From contig NZ_CP036523.1 of assembly GCF_008151785.1 (NCBI RefSeq), positions 1,302,001 through 1,366,000 of the forward strand: DNA of 64,000 nt, written 5' to 3'. The stretch is from Peptacetobacter hiranonis (GTDB lineage: Bacteria > Bacillota > Clostridia > Peptostreptococcales > Peptostreptococcaceae). The position numbers and the translations under genes are program-made. The notes beneath the pieces were generated by a model. That model saw nothing but the letters and a program-made list of their open reading frames with translations, searched no databases and was not told the DNA's origin. Of this stretch, positions 28,133 through 62,093 are shown in pieces (position 1 is the first letter of the stretch; the number at the start of each line of letters is the position of its first letter).

Positions 28133-28281
28133 TTCCTTCTCCTTCTCTCGATACGCTTTTAACGTGGTCGCCTCACTTTCGATTGCTAGTTTTACGACGT
28201 TCCGGTCAAATTTTTGTAATTTAATACGCGTATTTGCCTATTTTTTGCAAATTTGCGATATAAAATGTTAAAAATAGGCAT

Positions 28282-52635: not shown

Positions 52636-53088
52636 ATGCGTAAAAATGATTCTAATGTGCTTCCTGATACTATTAGCGATAAAATCAGAAAATCAGTATC
52701 ATCAAGAAATTACGAGCTTGCAGACTACCAATATCAAAGAATCATGGAAAGCATTTACGATTTTGAACAATATTTAGACAAAGATAAAGAGGTTGCTCTA
52801 TATCTTACTAATTTCGGTGAAAGCGTCCTTATGCATATAACTGATATTGGATACAGCAATCCATCACTTATCCACTACTTCGGATACGTAAATGGAAACT
52901 ATGCTGAACTAATCCAACACGTTTCTCAAATCAATTTCTTAATTACATCAGCTCCAAAATTGGACGATGAAAAACCAGCAAGAAGAATTGGATTTAAGAA
53001 CAATGTTGGTGAAGAATTTGTAGAACCTTCAAAAGAAGACCTTGAAGACTACGAAGCGCTGATGAAAGAAAGCAGAACAAACTTCTAA
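52636..53088 (+). CDS. DUF6173-like cytosolic protein
   Basis: 150 residues from the ATG at 52636 (GAAAGGTCGTGATTTT). LADYQYQRIMESIYDFEQYL, DKEVALYLTNFGESVLMHIT, DIGYSNPSLIHYFGYVNGNY and AELIQHVSQINFLITSAPKL. The central part matches small Firmicute proteins of unknown function (DUF6173 by recollection). No membrane segment. A strong terminator follows. Confidence 0.65.
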   Translation: MRKNDSNVLPDTISDKIRKSVSSRNYELADYQYQRIMESIYDFEQYLDKDKEVALYLTNFGESVLMHITDIGYSNPSLIHYFGYVNGNYAELIQHVSQINFLITSAPKLDDEKPARRIGFKNNVGEEFVEPSKEDLEDYEALMKESRTNF

Positions 53089-53130
53089 AATAAATTAATA
53101 CTCTTAAAAAACTTAACACGATTAAAAGAA

Positions 53131-53157
53131 GGCTGTTGCAACTGCAACAGCCTTTTT
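53131..53157 (+). terminator. terminator after the DUF6173-like gene
   Basis: GGCTGTTGCa-ac-TGCAACAGCC with five Ts. Confidence 0.9.
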
Positions 53158-53263
53158 AATACTTTCCTATAGATAGTATAATTATAAAATTTAATTAGCT
53201 AGCTTTTGGTATTGCATAATAACAAACTTCCATCGACAACTCGGTTTGAAGCTAGTAAAAAAT

Positions 53264-53341
53264 AGGACAAGATATATAACTGCCAGCCAGCGACAATGCA
53301 ACTTGATTGCCTGGAGCGGATGGTAGTTATAATCTTGTCCT
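53264..53341 (+). ncRNA. structured intergenic element A (short type)
   Basis: The outer helix is AGGACAAGAT/ATCTTGTCCT, continued inward by ATAACT/AGTTAT and CCA/TGG. The core is CGACAAT, inner hairpin GCAA-CTTGA-TTGC, then CTGGAG, so GCCTGGAG is complete. Weak pairing extends outward. It lies between the convergent DUF6173-like gene (already terminated) and the leftward membrane gene. RNA status is inferred from the shared core in five copies. Confidence 0.7.
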
Positions 53342-53391
53342 TTCATTTTAATTAACTTTTCCGAAGTTTTCCTAAAAGTTATATCACGCTT

Positions 53392-54057
53392 TTATTTTTC
53401 ATTTACCTTTTTCATAGCATTGTATCCCATGAATACTACCCATACATATGCTAATGTTTTAGGCATCATTAGTGCTCCAACTATTGGAATAGTTTTAGCA
53501 AATAGTACAACTGGAATATAGAATCCAAAGCTTAATGTTACTGCAAGCCACATATTTTTGAAACTTAAATCGTTAAATTCTCTTGTCTTTTTAAAGAATA
53601 TTACTATTATAACTAATCCCATTATTGCAAATGGTATGTTTCTGTATATTCCCCAAATTTCTGGTGCATTTGGAGATAACCAATCATTCTGTGGGAATAG
53701 GCAAAGTATTATTCTTATCGCTGCTAATGCATAAACTGCGAATTTAAGACCTTTATCGTCTTTTACTTCATATCTCATTTCCCATATATGGAATAATATT
53801 ACATAGAAAATAGTCATTGTTATTGATGCAACGGCTTCACCAAATCCTAACGCAGCAGGATTGTTGTTTATACCTACTGTCCACATAGAATATACTCTTG
53901 GAACTAGATGGAACGCATCCCCACATCCAAGAACGATAGCCATTATACCAAATAATCTATACTGACTACCTTTTTCTGTTGCTTTGATCATCTTTATACC
54001 TACTGTAATAACTGTTACTAAGTAGCAGATGTCAAAAATACTTTCAAATATTCTCAT
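53392..54057 (-). CDS. polytopic membrane protein of unknown function
   Basis: 221 residues with about seven hydrophobic segments, among them FDICYLVTVITVGIKMI, RLFGIMAIVLGCGDAFHLVP, SITMTIFYVILFHIWEMRYE, AIMGLVIIVIFFKK and SFGFYIPVVLFAKTIPIVG. Seven helices with conserved His and Asp in GCGDAFHLVPR suggest a 7TM sensor- or rhodopsin-like layout, but no family is known to me. The ATG at 54057 follows AGAGGTGATAAAT. Confidence 0.65.
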   Translation of the reverse strand: MRIFESIFDICYLVTVITVGIKMIKATEKGSQYRLFGIMAIVLGCGDAFHLVPRVYSMWTVGINNNPAALGFGEAVASITMTIFYVILFHIWEMRYEVKDDKGLKFAVYALAAIRIILCLFPQNDWLSPNAPEIWGIYRNIPFAIMGLVIIVIFFKKTREFNDLSFKNMWLAVTLSFGFYIPVVLFAKTIPIVGALMMPKTLAYVWVVFMGYNAMKKVNEK

Positions 54058-54282
54058 ATTTATCACCTCTGTATTTTTTATATGTTATATTTTAACACAT
54101 ATTATTTTATTGTCAAACATTTTTTATAAATAATATTTTATACTAAAAATATTTATCTAAAGAAAATATTTTTTACAATAAATATAACTAAATAAAAAAT
54201 AATAAAAAAAATATCCCCCTACACTCTTTTCCAAGAATATAAGAGGATGCTTAAAACGTTTTAAAATTTATTAACTTATATT

Positions 54283-54398
54283 TTGAAAAATCGTGATTAA
54301 TTTGCTACGACAATCTGTAAGCGACTCGCAACTTATAAATGTGTTACATAAAAGTGCGAGTCGCTGAAGCCTGGAGAACAATTAATCACGTTTTTCAA
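54283..54398 (+). ncRNA. structured intergenic element B (long type)
   Basis: Outer helix TTGAAAAA-t-CGTGATTAA/TTAATCACG-TTTTTCAA (one bulge). Core CGACAATCTGTA, inner helix AGCGACTCGCA/TGCGAGTCGCT with a 24-nt AU-rich loop, then GAAGCCTGGAG. It lies past the ispH stop and upstream of the 7TM-like gene, both read leftward, so the motif strand is antisense to them. The region 54058-54282 otherwise holds only AT-rich sequence. Confidence 0.72.
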
Positions 54399-54415
54399 TC
54401 GCAAGGTAATAACTT

Positions 54416-55258
54416 TTATAAACTTTTTAAGTATTCTATTATATCGTCTATTATCCAGTCTGGAGTAGATGCTCCAGCTGTTATTCCGACGTTTTCGTAT
54501 TTTTTTATCTCTTCCACATCTAAATCATCTCTAGTTTCAATTGCAAAAGTAGGGCAAACCTCTTTACATATTCCAACTAATTTCTGAGTGTTTGAGCTGT
54601 GTTTTCCACCAATTACAACCATACAGTCCATTTCTGATGCAAGCTCTCTAGCTGCTTCCTGTCTAGCCTTAGTTGATGAACAAATAGTATTATTAAAATC
54701 AATCTTATCTGATTTCTGTTTTAATATATCAACCATATTTCCGTAAACTTCTAAATTCATAGTAGTCTGTGCAACTGAGCAGTAATCAACCTCAGGATCT
54801 AATTCTAACTCTTTTGCTTCATCTATAGTTTTTATAATTATAGCCGAGTTGTTGCACCATCCATTTATTCCTATAACCTCAGGGTGATTTTTATCACCTA
54901 TTAAGATTATTTTCTTTCCTTTGTCGTAGTTTTCTTTAACTATATCGTGGATTTTTTTAACAAAAGGACATGTTGTATCCACTACTTCTAGTTCTTTTTC
55001 ATCTGCTCTATCGTATATAGACTTAGACACACCATGAGATCTTATTATCATTTTAACATCACTTGGTATTTCCTCTATATCGTCAGCTGTCACTAGCCCT
55101 CTTTCCTCATACTTTTCAACTGCCTGTTTATTATGTATAAGTGGACCTAATGCGTATATCTGTTTATCATGTTCCTCGCATAACTCTCTCCATGCAAGTC
55201 CCATAGCTCTCTTAACACCAAAACAAAATCCTGCTTTTTCTGATATCTTTATATTCAT
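54416..55258 (-). CDS. ispH: 4-hydroxy-3-methylbut-2-enyl diphosphate reductase
   Basis: 280 residues. Last enzyme of the MEP isoprenoid pathway, with a [4Fe-4S] cluster: AGFCFGVKRAMGLAW (first Cys), DTTCPFVKKIHDIVK (second Cys), and NTICSSTKARQEAA (third Cys). Also LGPLIHNKQAVEKYEERG, IRSHGVS and TAGASTPDWIIDD. The ATG at 55258 follows GGAGGAAATT. Same operon as plsC and cmk, a common clostridial order, but without the fused S1-domain seen in some. Confidence 0.96.
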   Translation of the reverse strand: MNIKISEKAGFCFGVKRAMGLAWRELCEEHDKQIYALGPLIHNKQAVEKYEERGLVTADDIEEIPSDVKMIIRSHGVSKSIYDRADEKELEVVDTTCPFVKKIHDIVKENYDKGKKIILIGDKNHPEVIGINGWCNNSAIIIKTIDEAKELELDPEVDYCSVAQTTMNLEVYGNMVDILKQKSDKIDFNNTICSSTKARQEAARELASEMDCMVVIGGKHSSNTQKLVGICKEVCPTFAIETRDDLDVEEIKKYENVGITAGASTPDWIIDDIIEYLKSL

Positions 55259-55277
55259 AATTTCCTCCAATCGATGC

Positions 55278-55910
55278 TTAGGCGTTGTATTTTATTCCTT
55301 CAACATCTACTATTCCATCTGCCTGTTCACAGTAATTTTTAATAATTACCTGCATAACTTCTTCTGAGATTCTTTCGTGGTCTTCATTTGTCAATTTGGC
55401 TCTAAAATACTGGCTCATATCTATAGGTTCGCCTATATATATCTTAACTCTGCTGAATAATTTATAGCTAGAAATTACAGATATAGGCACTACATTTGCC
55501 TTTCCTTTAGATGCAAAAAGTGATAAACCTGCCTTTGCCTGACCAAATTCTTTTCCTTTTACCCTAGTTCCTTCTGGGAATAATCCTAGCACATAACCAT
55601 CTTTTATAGCTCTTAAAATCTGCTTAACTGTTGAAATTCCAGTATTCTCTCTATCTATTGGTATAGTGTTTAATTTCTTTAAAATAAAACCTAGTATTTT
55701 ATGGTCGAATAATTCCTTCTTAGCAACCGCTGCAACCTCTCTTGTAGTCATTGAAGATGCAACAAATATAGGATCTAGGTTTGATTTGTGATTCGCAGCT
55801 ATTATAACATTTCCTTCAAGAGGTACATTTTCTATACCAATTACCTCATATTTGAAGAAAACCCTACAAAATAGACGAAGCACACTCAATGCAAAATCGT
55901 AAAACTTCAT
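55278..55910 (-). CDS. plsC: 1-acyl-sn-glycerol-3-phosphate acyltransferase
   Basis: 210 residues. Adds the second acyl chain in phosphatidic acid synthesis at the membrane. NVIIAANHKSNLDPIFVASS holds the HxxxxD catalytic motif, GLFPEGTRVKG the phosphate-binding EGTR motif, and ANVVPISVISSYKLF the late block. An N-terminal hydrophobic stretch may anchor it. 19 nt upstream of ispH in the operon. Confidence 0.93.
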   Translation of the reverse strand: MKFYDFALSVLRLFCRVFFKYEVIGIENVPLEGNVIIAANHKSNLDPIFVASSMTTREVAAVAKKELFDHKILGFILKKLNTIPIDRENTGISTVKQILRAIKDGYVLGLFPEGTRVKGKEFGQAKAGLSLFASKGKANVVPISVISSYKLFSRVKIYIGEPIDMSQYFRAKLTNEDHERISEEVMQVIIKNYCEQADGIVDVEGIKYNA

Positions 55911-55963
55911 TATTTAATTTCTCCATTCTTATTTTTATTTAACTTTATAGTATACATGGTAAA

Positions 55964-56602
55964 CTATTTTATTTTAGATACTACAGCCTCTACAACCTCG
56001 TCAATTCCAAGTCCAGTAGTGTCTATTTCTATAGCATCGTCTGCTTTTTTTAGAGGAGCAAATTCTCTATTAGAGTCTATCTCATCTCTTTTTTCTATAT
56101 CTTTTATAATCTCTTCTAAAGTTCCTTCAAATCCCTTTTCACAAAGTTCTTTGTATCTTCTTCTTCCTCTTTCTTCAGGAGTCGCAACTAAGAAGAACTT
56201 GTAGTCTGCATTTGGGAATACATAAGATCCGATATCTCTACCGTCAAGTATTACATCATTTCTTGTTCCTATCTCTCTCTGAACATCTACCATTAAATAT
56301 CTAACTTCTTTTATCTTAGCAACGTCAGAAACATTTGCACTTACTTCTCTAGTTCTTATCTTCTCGTTTACAACTTTTGAATCAAGATATATATTATTAT
56401 CTCTAAAATCTATATCAGTTCTTTTAGCTACTTCTATTACAGCTTCCTCATTCTTAACATCAACGCCTTCAGATAAGCATTTGTATGTTACTGCTCTGTA
56501 CATTGCTCCTGTGTCTATGTAGTTTATGTTTAGTTTTTTAGCTATTAATTTTGAAATAGTACTCTTTCCAGCTCCTGCTGGTCCATCTACTGCTATTATC
56601 AT
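55964..56602 (-). CDS. cmk: cytidylate kinase
   Basis: 212 residues. Phosphorylates CMP/dCMP. P-loop AVDGPAGAGKSTISKLIAKK, then YIDTGAMYRAVTYKCL, DGRDIGSYVFPNADYKFFL and RRYKELCEKGFEGTLEEIIK with the CMP-binding insert. The ATG at 56602 keeps the expected short N-terminus. Clustered with plsC and ispH. Confidence 0.96.
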   Translation of the reverse strand: MIIAVDGPAGAGKSTISKLIAKKLNINYIDTGAMYRAVTYKCLSEGVDVKNEEAVIEVAKRTDIDFRDNNIYLDSKVVNEKIRTREVSANVSDVAKIKEVRYLMVDVQREIGTRNDVILDGRDIGSYVFPNADYKFFLVATPEERGRRRYKELCEKGFEGTLEEIIKDIEKRDEIDSNREFAPLKKADDAIEIDTTGLGIDEVVEAVVSKIK

Positions 56603-56625
56603 AATTACCACACTCTCCTCTTTTT

Positions 56626-57882
56626 TTATTCATCTTTTCCTGCTGCAAATCCTGTTGAGAATGCAATCTGTAGATTATACCCTCCAGTTTCTGCATCTAT
56701 ATCCAAAATCTCACCTGCAACGTGAAGATTTTTTATCTTTTTAGATTCCATAGTAGTAGAGTTGATATCCTTAACAGATACCCCTCCAGATGTTACTATA
56801 GCTGGCTCAATTCCTAATGTTGAAGTACAAGTCAGCTTCATTTCTTTTATAAGTGATACTAGCTTGTTTTCTAGTTTTTTAGGAAGTTCGTTGACTTTCA
56901 TTTCCTCAACTCCTGCCTGTTCTGCAATAGCTTTTAAGAAATTCTGTGGAAGTATTCCTTTTAAATTTGTTATTACATTTCTATTTGGGAACTCCCTTAT
57001 CGCTGCAACGATATCTTCTCTTGTGCTATTAGGTAGGCAGTCTAGTGTTATTTCTATATTTCCATCTTCCAATGCTTTATTTATATAAGAAGATAAAATT
57101 AAAACCGCCGGTCCACTTATTCCAAAGTGAGTAAATATCATATCGCCGCTCTGTTTTATCTTTTTCTTCTTAATCTTGCAAGATAATTCCACGTCTTTTA
57201 GCGAAATTCCCTGCATATTCATTATCCAAGATTCTTCTATCTTAAGTGGTACAAGTGCAGGAAGTGGCTCAACTATCTTATGACCGTATTTTTTTAGGAT
57301 TTTGTACATATTTCCGTCTGATCCTGTATTTGAAAAACTTCTTCCTCCCGCTGCGACGATTACCTTGTCGCACTCAATCTTATCTCCATTGTCTAGGATA
57401 ATTCCTTTAATTTCACCAATCTTGTCCTTTTTTGATAAAATCTGTTCCTCTGGGAACATATTTACATCTAAATCGGCAACTCTTTTATTGTAGTATATTT
57501 TAACATTTCTCTTTAAAAGCTCTTTGTTTAAAGCATCTATTAAATCTTCTGACTTGTCGTTTTCTGTATATACCTTAAAATCATTATCTTTTTCTATTTT
57601 GTATTTTAGGCCAATTCTGTCAAAGAACCCTAGCAGATCCTTATTTGAAAATGCGTCAAAACTGCTGTATAAAAATCTCTTGTTTGTAACTACCTTATCA
57701 AAGAAATCATCTATCTCTCTGGCATTAGTTAGATTACATCTTCCTCCACCAGTTAGTTTGATTTTTCTTCCTAATTCGCCGTTTCTCTCAAGAAGTATTA
57801 CCTCGTTATTTGCATTTTGACTAGCAGATACAGCCGCCATCATACCAGCTGCTCCACCACCGATTATAACAACCTTTGCCAT
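56626..57882 (-). CDS. NAD(P)/FAD-dependent oxidoreductase (HI0933/YhiN family)
   Basis: 418 residues. FAD-binding start VVIIGGGAAGMMAAVSASQN, ELGRKIKLTGGGRCNLTNAR (family hallmark), IVAAGGRSFSNTGSDGNMYK (after KV), THFGISGPAVLILSSYI, and GGVSVKDINSTTMESKKIKN with a final GEILDIDAETGGYNLQIAFS. The substrate is unknown; relatives are flavoproteins near cmk in many clostridia. Confidence 0.93.
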   Translation of the reverse strand: MAKVVIIGGGAAGMMAAVSASQNANNEVILLERNGELGRKIKLTGGGRCNLTNAREIDDFFDKVVTNKRFLYSSFDAFSNKDLLGFFDRIGLKYKIEKDNDFKVYTENDKSEDLIDALNKELLKRNVKIYYNKRVADLDVNMFPEEQILSKKDKIGEIKGIILDNGDKIECDKVIVAAGGRSFSNTGSDGNMYKILKKYGHKIVEPLPALVPLKIEESWIMNMQGISLKDVELSCKIKKKKIKQSGDMIFTHFGISGPAVLILSSYINKALEDGNIEITLDCLPNSTREDIVAAIREFPNRNVITNLKGILPQNFLKAIAEQAGVEEMKVNELPKKLENKLVSLIKEMKLTCTSTLGIEPAIVTSGGVSVKDINSTTMESKKIKNLHVAGEILDIDAETGGYNLQIAFSTGFAAGKDE

Positions 57883-57933
57883 ATTTATCTCCTTTATCCA
57901 ACAATCCTATACCCAAGTAAAAATAACCTACAT

Positions 57934-58575
57934 TTACTCAAGAGCCGAGTTGTTAAGTTTATAATCCCCTTTTATATGAGATGTATCATTCATCTTAGTA
58001 ACAACTGGACCGTAATGTCTCCACTCTACTATATTTAAAGCTGTGTTATCCTGTTTAATTCTGTATATATTTTTCATTGGTGAGTCTAACATTAATAATA
58101 GAAGCACCCTAACTGTCACTGAATGACTAACTAGTAAAATATTCTTGTTATCATATTTTTCATTTAATTCGTCTATGAATTTTTCTAATCTTTCCTTTAT
58201 CACATCTAAAGTTTCCCCACCAGGAATTTTTGCAAGATGTGGCTCATTTCTCCAAGTTTTGTATATTTCTGGGTATTTTTCAGTTATTTCTGGAATTAAT
58301 CTACCTTCCCATTCTCCAAATCCCATTTCTCTTAAAGCTTCTGTCGGCTGCACTTCTATCCCAAATCTCTTTCCAACTGCTTCTGCTGTCTGCATTGCTC
58401 TTCCTAAATCGCTTGAGAATATCATATCCAGTGGATATTTATCCATGCCCTCTGCAAGTTCATTTGCCTGAGCAAGACCTTTTTCTGTTAGAGGTGAATT
58501 TCCATGCCCCTGAGTTTTTCCTAATATATTCCATTCTGTCTGTCCATGTCTAGCTATATAATAAGTGTTTCCCAT
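57934..58575 (-). CDS. histidine phosphatase family protein (phosphoglycerate mutase-like)
   Basis: 213 residues from the ATG at 58575 (CGGAGGAAATT before it). YYIARHGQTEWNILGKTQGH has the RHG nucleophile, IFSSDLGRAMQTAEAVGKRF the second Arg, LREMGFGEWEGR the Glu, and LLVSHSVTVRVLLLLML the second His. A cofactor-dependent PGM/cobalamin-phosphatase-like enzyme; the substrate cannot be set from sequence. Confidence 0.9.
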   Translation of the reverse strand: MGNTYYIARHGQTEWNILGKTQGHGNSPLTEKGLAQANELAEGMDKYPLDMIFSSDLGRAMQTAEAVGKRFGIEVQPTEALREMGFGEWEGRLIPEITEKYPEIYKTWRNEPHLAKIPGGETLDVIKERLEKFIDELNEKYDNKNILLVSHSVTVRVLLLLMLDSPMKNIYRIKQDNTALNIVEWRHYGPVVTKMNDTSHIKGDYKLNNSALE

Positions 58576-58703
58576 AATTTCCTCCGTTTCATTTTTACAA
58601 AACAAATGATATTGTCAAATGTTTTAATTTATCTCAATATTATATTATACAACAATAATGTGTTTTAATCTATGTTTATCGGCTAAAAGGCTGATGCAGG
58701 TGA

Positions 58704-58906
58704 AGTATTTCAAGGTAGAATTAATGATTTTGTAGCAATATTTTGACTTAGTACAAGTATTCGCTCTCCAGGCTTCAGCGCCTCGCACTTTTATATAACA
58801 CATTTATAAGTTGCGAGGCGCTTACAGAATTGTCGGTGCGATATACTTGTATCTAAGTCTGCAAAATATCTGCTTACAAAATCATTAATTCTTATCTTGA
58901 AATATC
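58704..58906 (-). ncRNA. structured intergenic element C (long type, very long arms)
   Basis: Read on the minus strand. Outer arms of about 65 nt are near-complementary: ATTTCAAGATAAGAATTAAT... against ...ATTAATTCTACCTTGAAAT, with TGATTTTGTA and ACTTAG/CTAAGT and ACAAGTAT blocks inside. Core CGACAATTCTGTA, inner helix AGCGCCTCGCA/TGCGAGGCGCT and the same AU-rich loop as B, then GAAGCCTGGAG. Compared with B one base pair of the inner helix changes from A-T to C-G on both sides. Confidence 0.75.
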
Positions 58907-59040
58907 TTTTGAAAACAAAAAAATATTGTAAATAGGTTTTACATCAATAGGGCATATAATGTGTTGAATGTGCAATCCTATTCTCCATTCTCTCTTTAAA
59001 CAAGGTAACAGCTAAGAACAAAATTAATATTTTTATTACA
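58907..59040. other. AT-rich gap between elements C and D
   Basis: No gene, tRNA or clear hairpin seen in this part of the 620-bp interval between the phosphatase and yitT genes. Confidence 0.5.
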
Positions 59041-59184
59041 TAGAGGCTTTTGCTAAGTTTACTTTCTTTGCTTGGAAATTAAATATATCTCCGTACTCGA
59101 CAATGCAGCTCGACTGCCTGGAGAGAAGGAGATATATTTTTTCCAAGCAGCAAAAAAGGAGACTTCCTCAAAAGCCTCCTCTAA
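59041..59184 (+). ncRNA. structured intergenic element D (short type)
   Basis: Outer arms run from AGAGGCTTTTG to CAAAAGCCTCCTCT, with inner blocks TTTGCTTGGAAA/TTCCAAGCAGCAAA and AAATATATCTCC/GGAGATATATTT. Core CGACAAT, inner hairpin GCAG-CTCGA-CTGC, CTGGAG. Compared with A the inner pair A-T is G-C here, a compensatory change. It overlaps the yitT terminator on the other strand. Confidence 0.75.
59152..59180 (-). terminator. terminator after yitT
   Basis: On the minus strand AGGAGGC and GTCTCCT (one mismatch) followed by six Ts. It is built from the right arm of element D. Confidence 0.65.
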
Positions 59185-59197
59185 CAAAATATTAATC

Positions 59198-60070
59198 TTA
59201 TTCTGCTGTTACCGGTTTAAATCCATTACCTAATGCCTCATGTATATCAGTTATGATTATAAACGCTTTAGGATCGACTTCTCTTACAAGTCTTTTTAGC
59301 GCAACAACTTCTTTCTTCTCAACTACAACCAAAATAACATTCTTATCAGCACCAGTGTACGCACCTTCACCTTTAAGGAAAGTCGCACCTCTGTCTAACT
59401 CTTCCATTATCTTGTCTGTAATTTCCTTTGAATGATCAGAAATAATCATAAATGACTTAGAATAGTTAAATCCTTCTATCATAAGGTCGCTGACCTTTAT
59501 AATGATGTATAAAGAAACAGAAGAATATAGTGCTATTTCTATCTGACCTGTTGCAAATCCTGACATAACGATTACTGCACAGTCTATAATTCCTAAAAGA
59601 ATTGGTATACTTAATGTTGGGAACACCTTATTAATTAACAAAGCCATTAAGTCTGTACCACCTGTAGAACCACTTATTCTAAGGATTAACCCCTGTCCGA
59701 TACCCATAAGTATTGAACCGAGTATTATAATTAGGTAAATGTCCTCTGTTATGAATATTGAAGACATACTCTCAGTTACCTTTAACGCAACTGTTAATAA
59801 TATTATTCCTAGTACTGTTTTGATACAGTCTCTCTTGCTCAAAATCTTGTACGCTGCGATAAATAGCGGTACGTTTAGAACAAGGTTGACAATCCATAGA
59901 GGAATTCCAAAAAGCATATTAAGAACAACTGCAAGCCCAGTTATCCCACCTGATGCAATTCCATAAGGATTGAAGAATAAATTTAGCGAAATCGCCATCA
60001 TAATACATCCTATTATTAGAATAAAAACATCGCTAAACCCTAGTCTTAAACTTTCTTTTTCTTTTTCCAA
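59198..60070 (-). CDS. YitT-family membrane protein (DUF161 and DUF2179)
   Basis: 290 residues. Five to six transmembrane helices: LIIGCIMMAISLNLFFNPYG, IASGGITGLAVVLNMLFGIP, LSIPILLGIIDCAVIVMSGF. The motif GLILRISGSTGGTDLMALLI is characteristic. The C-terminal DUF2179 domain reads MIISDHSKEITDKIMEELDR, TFLKGEGAYTGADKNVILVV. Transport role unknown. Confidence 0.92.
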   Translation of the reverse strand: MEKEKESLRLGFSDVFILIIGCIMMAISLNLFFNPYGIASGGITGLAVVLNMLFGIPLWIVNLVLNVPLFIAAYKILSKRDCIKTVLGIILLTVALKVTESMSSIFITEDIYLIIILGSILMGIGQGLILRISGSTGGTDLMALLINKVFPTLSIPILLGIIDCAVIVMSGFATGQIEIALYSSVSLYIIIKVSDLMIEGFNYSKSFMIISDHSKEITDKIMEELDRGATFLKGEGAYTGADKNVILVVVEKKEVVALKRLVREVDPKAFIIITDIHEALGNGFKPVTAE

Positions 60071-60316
60071 AATGATCCACTTCCTTTCATATTTAATTAT
60101 ATATGAAATTTTTCTTTTTTCATAGTTTGGGAAAATATTTATTTAACAATATATTAATCTATAACTATTTTATTAAATCTATTTTTTAAATTTACTTTTA
60201 AACTTCTTATATATATAAATTGTTTTATATTTGTAGTATAATATTATTAAGAAGTAAGAAAAAATTTTCCTGGTTTATTTTATAAATTAAATCACATTTT
60301 TGAAGAGGTGGTATTT

Positions 60317-60793
60317 ATGATTTTTGATTTATATCCTTGGAAAGTAGATTTTGACATAGAATCTACTAAAGAATTTTATAAAGAAAATAATCTATCTATT
60401 GATGCTGATTTAAATGAAAAATTTAAACGCAGCCTACACCTAACTCACAAACAATTTTTTGAAAATATCGGTGTAGATATTTTAAAAGTTAGAGTTGAAG
60501 AGATAGAATCTTGCCCAGATGAAAACGTAAACGACCATAAATTGTCTGTTGATTTCTTAGTATGTGGAAAGTTTTTGACAATAGCTGAGTTTCAAAAGGA
60601 AATTTATGGAAATATAGAAGAATTTAAAGACGATGTAGAAAAGGTAGATGTATTAGATTACGATTTTCCACCATTTGTAAACATAGACGATATGGGATGC
60701 GGAGTTGTATTTAAACATCCATCTAGCAAATTTGACTTTAAAGGATTTGAAAAATGGGACTGCGGATATATCTGCGGCTCAGTAATAATATAG
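60317..60793 (+). CDS. hypothetical cytosolic protein
   Basis: 158 residues from the ATG at 60317 (GAGGTGGTATTT before it). MIFDLYPWKVDFDIESTKEF, LTHKQFFENIGVDILKVRVE, then FPPFVNIDDMGCGVVFKHPS and FDFKGFEKWDCGYICGSVII. Unrecognised, with a Cys-rich conserved-looking C-terminus. It ends directly at element E. Confidence 0.6.
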   Translation: MIFDLYPWKVDFDIESTKEFYKENNLSIDADLNEKFKRSLHLTHKQFFENIGVDILKVRVEEIESCPDENVNDHKLSVDFLVCGKFLTIAEFQKEIYGNIEEFKDDVEKVDVLDYDFPPFVNIDDMGCGVVFKHPSSKFDFKGFEKWDCGYICGSVII

Positions 60794-60922
60794 AGAAAAG
60801 GGTGTTTTAAGCAATCATCAACGACAATCTACAGACGATTTTTTCTTTAGCTTCGAACGGAGTTCGAACTAGATAAGAAAAATCGTCGAAGCCTGGAGTG
60901 ATGATGCTTAAACACCCTTTCT
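60794..60922 (+). ncRNA. structured intergenic element E (long type)
   Basis: Outer helix AAAGGGTGTTTTAAGC-a-ATCATCA/TGATGATGCTT-AAACACCCTTT. Core CGACAATCTACA, inner helix GACGATTTTTTCTT/AAGAAAAATCGTC topped by a second perfect hairpin TTCGAAC-gga-GTTCGAA, then GAAGCCTGGAG. It starts right after the stop of the upstream gene and ends 8 nt from the convergent dehydrogenase stop, so it can also act as a bidirectional terminator. Confidence 0.75.
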
Positions 60923-60929
60923 TTCTATT

Positions 60930-62093
60930 CTATAAACTCATTTTATATATTTCTAATACATCTTCTTTGCTTAGAGATACATATCCATATTTTGCACCTC
61001 TTTTAGATGCAAATTCAGCCATAACTTCTAAGTTTTCTTCATCTATACCAACTTCTCTTAAATTCATTGGTATTCCTATACTTGCGAAGAAATCATAAGT
61101 CTTTTCAATAGCCATATTAGCTATTTCAAATTTATCTAATGAAGAATCAATTCCCCATACATTAACACCGTAATCGACAAATTTACCTACTGTTTTGTCG
61201 CTTAATATGTGTTTCATCCATCTTGGAGTAAGGATTGCAAGTCCAACACCATGAGTTATATCATAGTATGCACTTAATTCGTGTTCCATTGGATGAACTG
61301 ACCAACCTACATCTGTTCCGTAAGAAATCATACCATTTATTGCATGAGAGCCTGCCCACATTAAATTTGCTCTTGCATCATAATTTTCTGGCTCTTTAAC
61401 AGCTATTGGTCCAAATTCTATACAAGTTTTTAATAGTGATTCAGCGAATCTATCCTGTAAATAAGCCCCTTCAACATCGTGGAAGTATGTTTCTATAATG
61501 TGGCTCATTATATCTGCAGTTCCAGCAGCTGTCTGGTTTGCAGGCACTGTATATGTGTATTCAGGATCAAGTATTGATACTCTAGGTTTTAAAATTTCTC
61601 CACCCATACCTAATTTATCATTTGTTTCCATATTAGATATAACAGCAAATCCATCCATTTCTGAACCTGTTGCTGAAAGAGTAAGTACTGATATTATTGG
61701 AAGTGCTTCTTTTATAAGTGAGCTTTTTAGTACTAAATCCCAAGGATCTCCATCATAAAACGCTCCAGCTGCTATAAGCTTACTACAGTCGATTACGCTA
61801 CCTCCACCAACTGCAAGTATTACATCTATCTTACATTCTTTGCATAATTTAACACCATCTCTAGCAGAGTCTATTCTTGGGTTTGGAGCAATTCCAGAAA
61901 GCTCAAATACATTGATATCAGAATCATTTAACTGTTCCATAACCTGGTCGTAAATTCCATTTCTTTTAATACTATTTCCACCGTATACAAGAAGAACATT
62001 GTGTCCAAAGTTTTTAACTTCTCCTCTTAACTTAGATATCTGTCCTTTACCAAAATGTACTCTCGTTGGAATATTATAGTCAAAATTCTTCAT
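60930..62093 (-). CDS. iron-containing alcohol dehydrogenase (NADPH-butanol dehydrogenase type)
   Basis: 387 residues. NYNIPTRVHFGKGQISKLRG start, dinucleotide site LAVGGGSVIDCSKLIAAGAF, and metal ligands in GTADIMSHIIETYFHDVEGA (Asp, His) and GWSVHPMEHELSAYYDITHG (two His). LTLSATGSEMDGFAVIS is typical of BdhA/YqhD-like enzymes. It reduces aldehydes to alcohols in fermentation; the preferred substrate is unknown. Downstream of the RpiR regulator on the same strand. Confidence 0.93.
   Translation of the reverse strand: MKNFDYNIPTRVHFGKGQISKLRGEVKNFGHNVLLVYGGNSIKRNGIYDQVMEQLNDSDINVFELSGIAPNPRIDSARDGVKLCKECKIDVILAVGGGSVIDCSKLIAAGAFYDGDPWDLVLKSSLIKEALPIISVLTLSATGSEMDGFAVISNMETNDKLGMGGEILKPRVSILDPEYTYTVPANQTAAGTADIMSHIIETYFHDVEGAYLQDRFAESLLKTCIEFGPIAVKEPENYDARANLMWAGSHAINGMISYGTDVGWSVHPMEHELSAYYDITHGVGLAILTPRWMKHILSDKTVGKFVDYGVNVWGIDSSLDKFEIANMAIEKTYDFFASIGIPMNLREVGIDEENLEVMAEFASKRGAKYGYVSLSKEDVLEIYKMSL

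Follow-up and report, generated by a model that had tools for sequence, protein, structure and literature searches.

Miniature inverted-repeat transposable elements (MITEs) have conserved terminal inverted repeats and are flanked by target duplications, and attC sites combine variable arms, extra bases on one strand and an inner hairpin of variable length with outer boxes that are kept. Passages of PMC3116915 describe REP sequences and REPINs as high-copy extragenic palindromes that occur as inverted-repeat doublets and are predicted to form hairpins in single-stranded DNA. In passages of Monttinen and Loytynoja (PMC8794818), template switching, hairpin-loop priming included, creates and mends stems, leaving one-event reverse-complement copies, multi-base compensatory changes and Watson-Crick stems without a G-U step. 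Here we analyze a 64,000-nucleotide (nt) stretch of a Peptacetobacter genome (G000:C1:1302001-1366000, hereafter the window; the genome, G000, is one contig of 2,521,899 bases), which holds five intergenic elements with a constant core, CGACAAT on one side of an inner hairpin and GCCTGGAG on the other, enclosed by long complementary arms. With modest confidence, we lean toward reading these elements as interspersed DNA palindromes around a constant mobile hairpin tip, whose arms arise, lengthen and are repaired through DNA template switching.

The elements resemble each of these systems in part. Like MITEs, they are short, noncoding, inverted-repeat sequences with many copies that are absent from matching sites in relatives; however, their arms are common within subfamilies only, and the ends differ between subfamilies. 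With attC sites they share variable arms, one-strand extra bases and an inner hairpin of variable length, but it is the apex that is kept, and G000 has no conserved outer boxes. Like REP sequences and REPINs, they are high-copy extragenic palindromes that also form inverted-repeat doublets. In contrast to those, the apex is constant and the arms vary, orientation is fixed behind stop codons in 75/81 copies, the arms can copy the gene end, no single conserved stem exists, and G000 has no Y1 (RAYT-type) transposase. As in intrinsic terminators, a T-run follows the stem in 13/22 copies within 45 nt of a stop codon, but the constant tip is large, the arms are ~80 nt long, and the share of G-U pairs is smaller than in the terminators of the same genome. 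The likeness to template-switch hairpins lies in reverse-complement copies of adjacent sequence that are absent in relatives (locus 2212904 and window elements D and B). The hairpins treated in those passages of PMC8794818 are those of RNA genes, whereas here inverted gene ends recur around one conserved tip in one genome.

A Family of Palindromes Behind Genes

The five window elements (A to E; Table 1) are present as the initial annotation had described them. The element strand is the one that reads CGACAAT ... GCCTGGAG, and left and right arms are named on it. In the window GCCTGGAG is enriched (5 observed vs 0.31 expected, with 5 reached by 0/100 shuffles); CGACAAT alone shows no enrichment (8 vs 5.0 expected). 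All five elements fold far better than shuffles (z-scores of -5.9 to -8.9). None had been seen in the prophage or the left flank, and this stands, because the covariance models R1 and R2 match only the five elements in the window. The palindromes are longer than had been described, with arms of 40-103 nt per side against a genome median of ~80 nt. Elements B and C have different arms; over 71 nt of core and inner hairpin they are 92% identical. The complement of the element strand, CTCCAGGC - inner hairpin - ATTGTCG, is called the gene-sense strand from its gene context; tandem G-A mismatches had suggested the CGACAAT strand as the functional one, an idea that this context reversed.

The window copies are part of a larger genome-wide family. 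Exact patterns find copies with a short core (23) and with a long core (58) in G000, and the reversed control pattern finds none; these 81 copies, 82 minus one overlapping false core match (1355234), were analyzed, and the union of R1 and R2 gives 134 places at E <= 0.01. The distribution is uneven, with 102/134 places between 0.5 and 1.5 Mb (G000:C1:500000-1500000; binomial p ~1e-17 vs an even spread). This part lies opposite chromosome position 0, and may be the terminus half, since genes near position 0 are presumably lysS-, ftsH- and tilS-like. Many elements form head-to-head pairs ~300 bp apart; most of the 81 copies stand alone rather than in arrays.

In 75/81 copies the nearest called gene upstream on the gene-sense strand ends toward the core, its stop codon lying 22-423 nt away (70 within 160 nt); on the opposite side of the same copies a stop codon faces the core in 42/81. 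Gene calls here are simple open reading frames, not annotation, and the upstream distance of 109541 only reflects the limits of the sequence used. The small open frames at the six exceptions, which include element C, are unconvincing. A run of five T lies 16-34 nt after the core in 13/22 copies within 45 nt of the stop (vs 37/324 background windows), in 10/38 copies at 46-100 nt and in 0/15 beyond, and a separate hairpin with a T-run stands between stop codon and core in 15/38 copies at 46-100 nt and in 10/15 beyond 100 nt. Thus, some near copies may serve as terminator, and some farther copies may follow it.

Inverted Copies of Gene Ends

The downstream arm could be compared with the terminal 60 nt of the coding sequence at 70/81 loci; of the others, six lack a facing stop codon and five have it beyond 160 nt. 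The arm holds an inverted coding end above the 99% null at 22/70 loci and above the 95% null at 27/70. Scores of 15 or more were reached by 17/83 genes with a core within 160 nt downstream but by only 2/167 genes without one (Fisher p 2e-7); by eye, one of these two has a degenerate core; the other has a plain terminator enclosed in a palindrome. The inverted copies cover 17-57 nt of coding sequence, and the 16 loci scoring 15 or more sum to 494 matches, 41 substitutions, 27 inserted and 11 missing bases, counts that shift with alignment costs.

The direction of copying can be read at locus 2212904, where 40 bases of the coding end are matched, none is substituted and three are inserted. The C-terminus DEVTNACLRELNKYR is kept in the relative G001, and reads DEITNACLREVNKYR in the relative G002, both of which lack the element and the copy, and by eye the inverted copy carries the codons of G000, not those of G001. 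Because the protein end is conserved in element-free relatives and the copy follows G000 codons, these alignments point to the gene as template, so that at this locus at least the inverted coding end was copied from the host gene. At the two other loci compared with relatives, elements D and B, the YitT- and LytB/IspH-family gene ends are alignable by eye and the inverted copies are found only in G000.

Base Pairing of the Arms

With strict scoring outward from the core against a null of mismatched loci (lenient scoring overran AT-rich flanks), palindromic pairing exceeds the 95% null in 78/81 copies, and the median arms are 82 and 80 nt. Within 20 nt of the core, 1287 Watson-Crick pairs stand against 111 mismatches and 165 unpaired bases. 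In two alignments, A1 and A2 (57/58 copies used in A2, copy 1457101 being excluded), 23/29 and 31/38 pairs, respectively, have changed on both sides; the covariation score is reached by 0/500 shuffles in both and lies far above slid controls. DNA palindromes, however, would also give covarying helices. The initial annotation had named a lack of covariation beyond DNA palindromes as an outcome that would count against it, and to a large extent that is the pattern found: covariation is massive, but near pairing is almost only Watson-Crick.

Specifically, the near helix (bp 5-17, gene-sense strand) contains 1022 Watson-Crick, 8 G-U and 9 A-C pairs, compared with 351, 20 and 8, respectively, in 40 ordinary G000 terminators picked without favoring G-U; the G-U share differs clearly (p 7e-7), the G-U:A-C ratio alone does not (p 0.12). 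The near arms of 23 of 24 loci in other genera (one without a recognized core was excluded) give 453 Watson-Crick, 3 G-U and 6 A-C pairs. Counts in fixed columns, which misregistered pairs dilute, give G-U:A-C ratios of 30:30, 69:65 and 32:27, with 13:9 in the inner helix.

These data bear on a model that we consider unlikely, in which the element is a structured RNA at mRNA 3' ends, with a terminator or stabilizing stem topped by a core that forms an asymmetric loop and binds a protein or ligand. The facing stop codons, the T-runs, the strong covariation, an apex conserved across genera and stereotyped extra bases on one arm are all consistent with such an RNA, as are an excess of G-U over A-C within 20 nt of the core (34:6), another in the inner stems (46:7 in one count) and a mild G-U lead in the far arms. 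The first excess, however, clusters at bp 1-6, in junctions that are shared within subfamilies, and the second probably reflects the first position, where a fixed C faces A. Varying arms around a fixed loop had been taken as the mark of a functional RNA, a reading that is not supported: in the near helix G-U is no commoner than A-C (8:9 in G000, 3:6 in other genera), and at many loci an arm is an inverted copy of coding sequence. Taken together, the pairing data speak against strong selection on the near arms to pair as RNA, but they do not argue against an RNA role of the tip. Copy number also varies steeply, from no R2 match in G002 and two in G001 to the 134 places in G000, so the element is hardly a needed regulator.

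The elements also match no Rfam family; the initial annotation had not recognized them as a named family. None of the three gathering-score matches of Rfam 15 in the window lies at an element, a permissive search of 53000-61200 gave four matches, all below gathering (E 1.7-8.4), and at nine loci of other genomes three matches fell outside the elements.

Arm Subfamilies and Sites in Relatives

The arms of the five window copies are mutually different, as had been claimed of the outer helices, but the arm subfamilies of A and C occur at 8 and 5 other loci, respectively. At the threshold used, 44 of the 81 copies fall into seven arm subfamilies of 3 to 15 loci, and 37 are singletons; shared arms had been taken by the initial annotation as a mark of mobile repeats, and some copies do share them. 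One subfamily can bear different inner hairpins (11 long and 4 short in the largest), and three loci have nearly identical elements but a differing outer right side. Arms and tips are therefore separable. The proposal of a fixed central loop accordingly holds for the asymmetric loop, which is constant while the arms vary and are complementary, but not for the inner hairpin, which takes several forms across the genome, combined with different arms.

Relatives G001 and G002 were compared at the window sites and at locus 2212904. At the sites matching the five window elements neither has a core, so the element has spread recently. G002 lacks the gene between A and B, whose sites therefore form a single junction there; in G001, plain terminators stand at the A, B and C/D sites (by eye). 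One segment departs from the general divergence: an element and its adjoining transketolase-like gene (L001 1455-3026 vs L107, contig C63 of G001) are 95% identical between G000 and G001, whereas the other regions compared are 77-85% identical, and the match begins at the palindrome edge. This may reflect transfer of gene plus element, or contamination of a metagenome-assembled genome.

The plain terminators in G001 fit insertion at terminator hairpins by an ordinary MITE- or REP-like palindrome, transposable but non-autonomous, whose outer arms are host terminator stems and whose enzyme is encoded elsewhere or lost. The far arms at several loci of other genera (e.g., L200, L202, L207, L209 and L210), which look by eye like a terminator stem around the element, agree with it, as do the subfamilies of near-identical elements and the many head-to-head pairs. 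Terminator stems, however, leave the inverted copies of coding sequence unexplained, the ends are not conserved between subfamilies, and no Y1 transposase was found in G000; we regard this model as improbable. The Y1 transposase family PF01797 has no match in G000, two in G001 and one in G002, each with an internal stop, and the reverse transcriptase family PF00078 has none in G000 or G001 and one in G002. A RAYT/IS200 model and a retrocopy model were rejected on the absence from G000 of Y1_Tnp and RVT_1, respectively.

Extra bases near the core lie nearly all on the left arm (201 vs 5 in the first 20 bp in G000; 35 vs 3 on the same side at the 23 loci of other genera) and favor positions such as bp 2-3, 8-9 and 15-17. 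That they are nearly confined to one strand, that tandem arrays exist in another genus, and that both relatives lack a 161-amino acid gene together with element E would suit folded single-strand DNA recombination sites resembling integron attC, in which structure and extra-helical bases matter and arm sequence does not, but conservation lies in the apex and not in outer boxes, and most of the 81 copies are single, making this very improbable.

Occurrence in Other Genomes

Covariance models were also run over the genomes of the family, as the initial annotation had proposed. R3, built on matches in other genera, matches 16/71 Peptostreptococcaceae genomes and 8/23 genera at E <= 0.01, some weakly, and R1, with stricter filters, found six at E <= 0.001 among 393 genomes drawn from the order, all in Peptostreptococcaceae. 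Across genome contigs, the specific short-core pattern matched only a Peptacetobacter record. Three patterns searched in viral contigs for phage carriage gave no match, and R1 matched neither of two recT relatives taken from viral contigs, even at E values up to 5. No description of the element was found in the open-access literature searched, judged from titles and abstract openings. A sequencing artefact was rejected, since mismatches and bulges occur in the arms and several genomes show the same anatomy.

In other genera a stop codon faces the element at 6-89 nt in 24 of 34 examined loci, which are part of all matches there, and a start codon in 10; host genes read from translations, without database searches, include pyrH-, valS- and enolase-like genes. 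CGCT and TTCGCTAG-like flanks recur there by eye. Orthologous copies show matched changes, each judged by eye: between G073 and G074 a 5-bp block holds four differing pairs, each changed on both arms in a matched way, and at valS two pairs differ between G060 and G059, both matched. At recT-like gene ends of two genera (L182 and L195/L184; G010 and G076) the palindrome reaches into the final codons, and three adjacent bases differ on both sides (by eye). The G010 recT site also keeps, by eye, a leftover right half of an older copy. In G006, of another genus, elements form clusters and tandem arrays (L172 and L174, also L173, L175, L179 and L180), with three same-scoring units 222 bp apart at L172 and periods of 116-362 bp at L174; these arrays adjoin genes read as SecA-like and cell-wall-protein-like.

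Table 1. Elements and neighboring features, in window coordinates; for palindromes the gene-sense strand (CTCCAGGC first) is given
Feature	Position	Strand	Description
Element A palindrome	53225..53380	-	Core 53291-53316, short inner hairpin; arms 66/64 nt; arm subfamily of 9
Element A host gene	53392-54066	-	Element downstream of gene; no Pfam match
Element B palindrome	54237..54444	-	Core 54308-54376, long inner hairpin; arms 71/68 nt
Element B host gene, LytB/IspH-family	54416-55270	-	B downstream of gene; its right arm extends into coding end
Inverted copy of LytB/IspH coding end	54237..54264	+	In left arm of B; 24 matches, 4 substitutions, 1 base missing; p=0.0003 vs mismatched loci
Element C palindrome	58703..58908	+	Core 58766-58835 (element strand minus); arms 73/63 nt; one of 6/81 copies without a called gene ending upstream on the gene-sense strand
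Element D palindrome	58995..59221	-	Core 59098-59123, short inner hairpin; arms 103/98 nt
Element D host gene, YitT-family	59198-60070	-	D downstream of gene
Inverted copy of YitT-family coding end	58995..59021	+	p=0.008; gene end alignable in both relatives (by eye)
Element E palindrome	60781..60938	-	Core 60822-60898, long inner hairpin; arms 41/40 nt
Gene flanking element E, 161 aa	60308-60793	+	No Pfam match; between YitT and Fe-ADH genes; absent together with E in both relatives
Fe-ADH gene flanking element E	60930-62093	-	Neighbor on the gene-sense strand of E
GP20-b RNA (RF03003) match	28152-28208		Rfam match in the region that the initial annotation took as prophage

Discussion

The features described above, a constant tip, its position and orientation, tip-free sites in relatives, near arms that pair almost only by Watson-Crick bonds and inverted coding ends copied from the host gene at one locus at least, can be joined in one template-switching model. 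In this model the constant tip would arrive at gene ends, mostly just downstream, with some copies landing within or right after an intrinsic terminator. A strand that passes through gene end and tip would then fold back and copy itself, thereby laying the reverse complement of the 3' untranslated region, and often of the last codons, on the noncoding side. Insertion and arm copying would be one event, the copying would be replicative template switching, and a protein would recognize the tip. The orientation could be fixed by selection alone, because the reverse event would overwrite the gene.

Several observations weigh against template switching around a mobile tip. No enzyme is at hand, Y1_Tnp and RVT_1 both being absent from G000, in which other recombinases were not searched. 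At 48/70 loci no coding-end copy passes the 99% threshold, and at G000:C1:1480640-1480740 a gene end has its inverted coding-end copy although the terminator it surrounds is plain and lacks the core, so coding-end copying may be independent of the tip. Whole elements also spread together with their arms, since the subfamilies cover more than half of the 81 copies, and arms are thus not always made anew. The left-arm bias of extra bases (201:5) is not predicted by plain template switching and suggests that the folded strand is under selection. A mild lead of G-U over A-C also appears farther out, 93:71 within 60 nt in G000 and 26:14 within 70 nt in other genera. Among orthologous copies, one arm change near the core is unmatched between G073 and G074, and at pyrH the arm changes between G003 and G074 are unmatched (both by eye). 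Moreover, the element may overwrite the gene as well, because the last codons of recT in G010 and G076 differ together with the arm. Finally, no target-site duplication was established: in the three groups aligned, site-specific palindromy blurs the edges of the shared unit, and in relatives the matching intergenic regions are too diverged.

A bolder form of the template-switching model, possible but in our view doubtful, is that of a selfish or exapted DNA element without ends of its own, in which only the 26-77 nt hairpin tip is inherited. At a new site the tip would force the replicating strand to fold back and copy the neighboring gene end, and the resulting long palindrome would mirror its host gene and may serve as its terminator. 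If the template-switching model is right, it implies a factor that spreads a hairpin tip, and the family would carry a warning that covariation alone can mimic a functional RNA. Furthermore, it would show that at many loci of one genome long gene-end hairpins can arise in one step and stay almost free of mispairs even when RNA pairing is not selected for, and these palindromes would offer a natural test bed for bacterial template switching.

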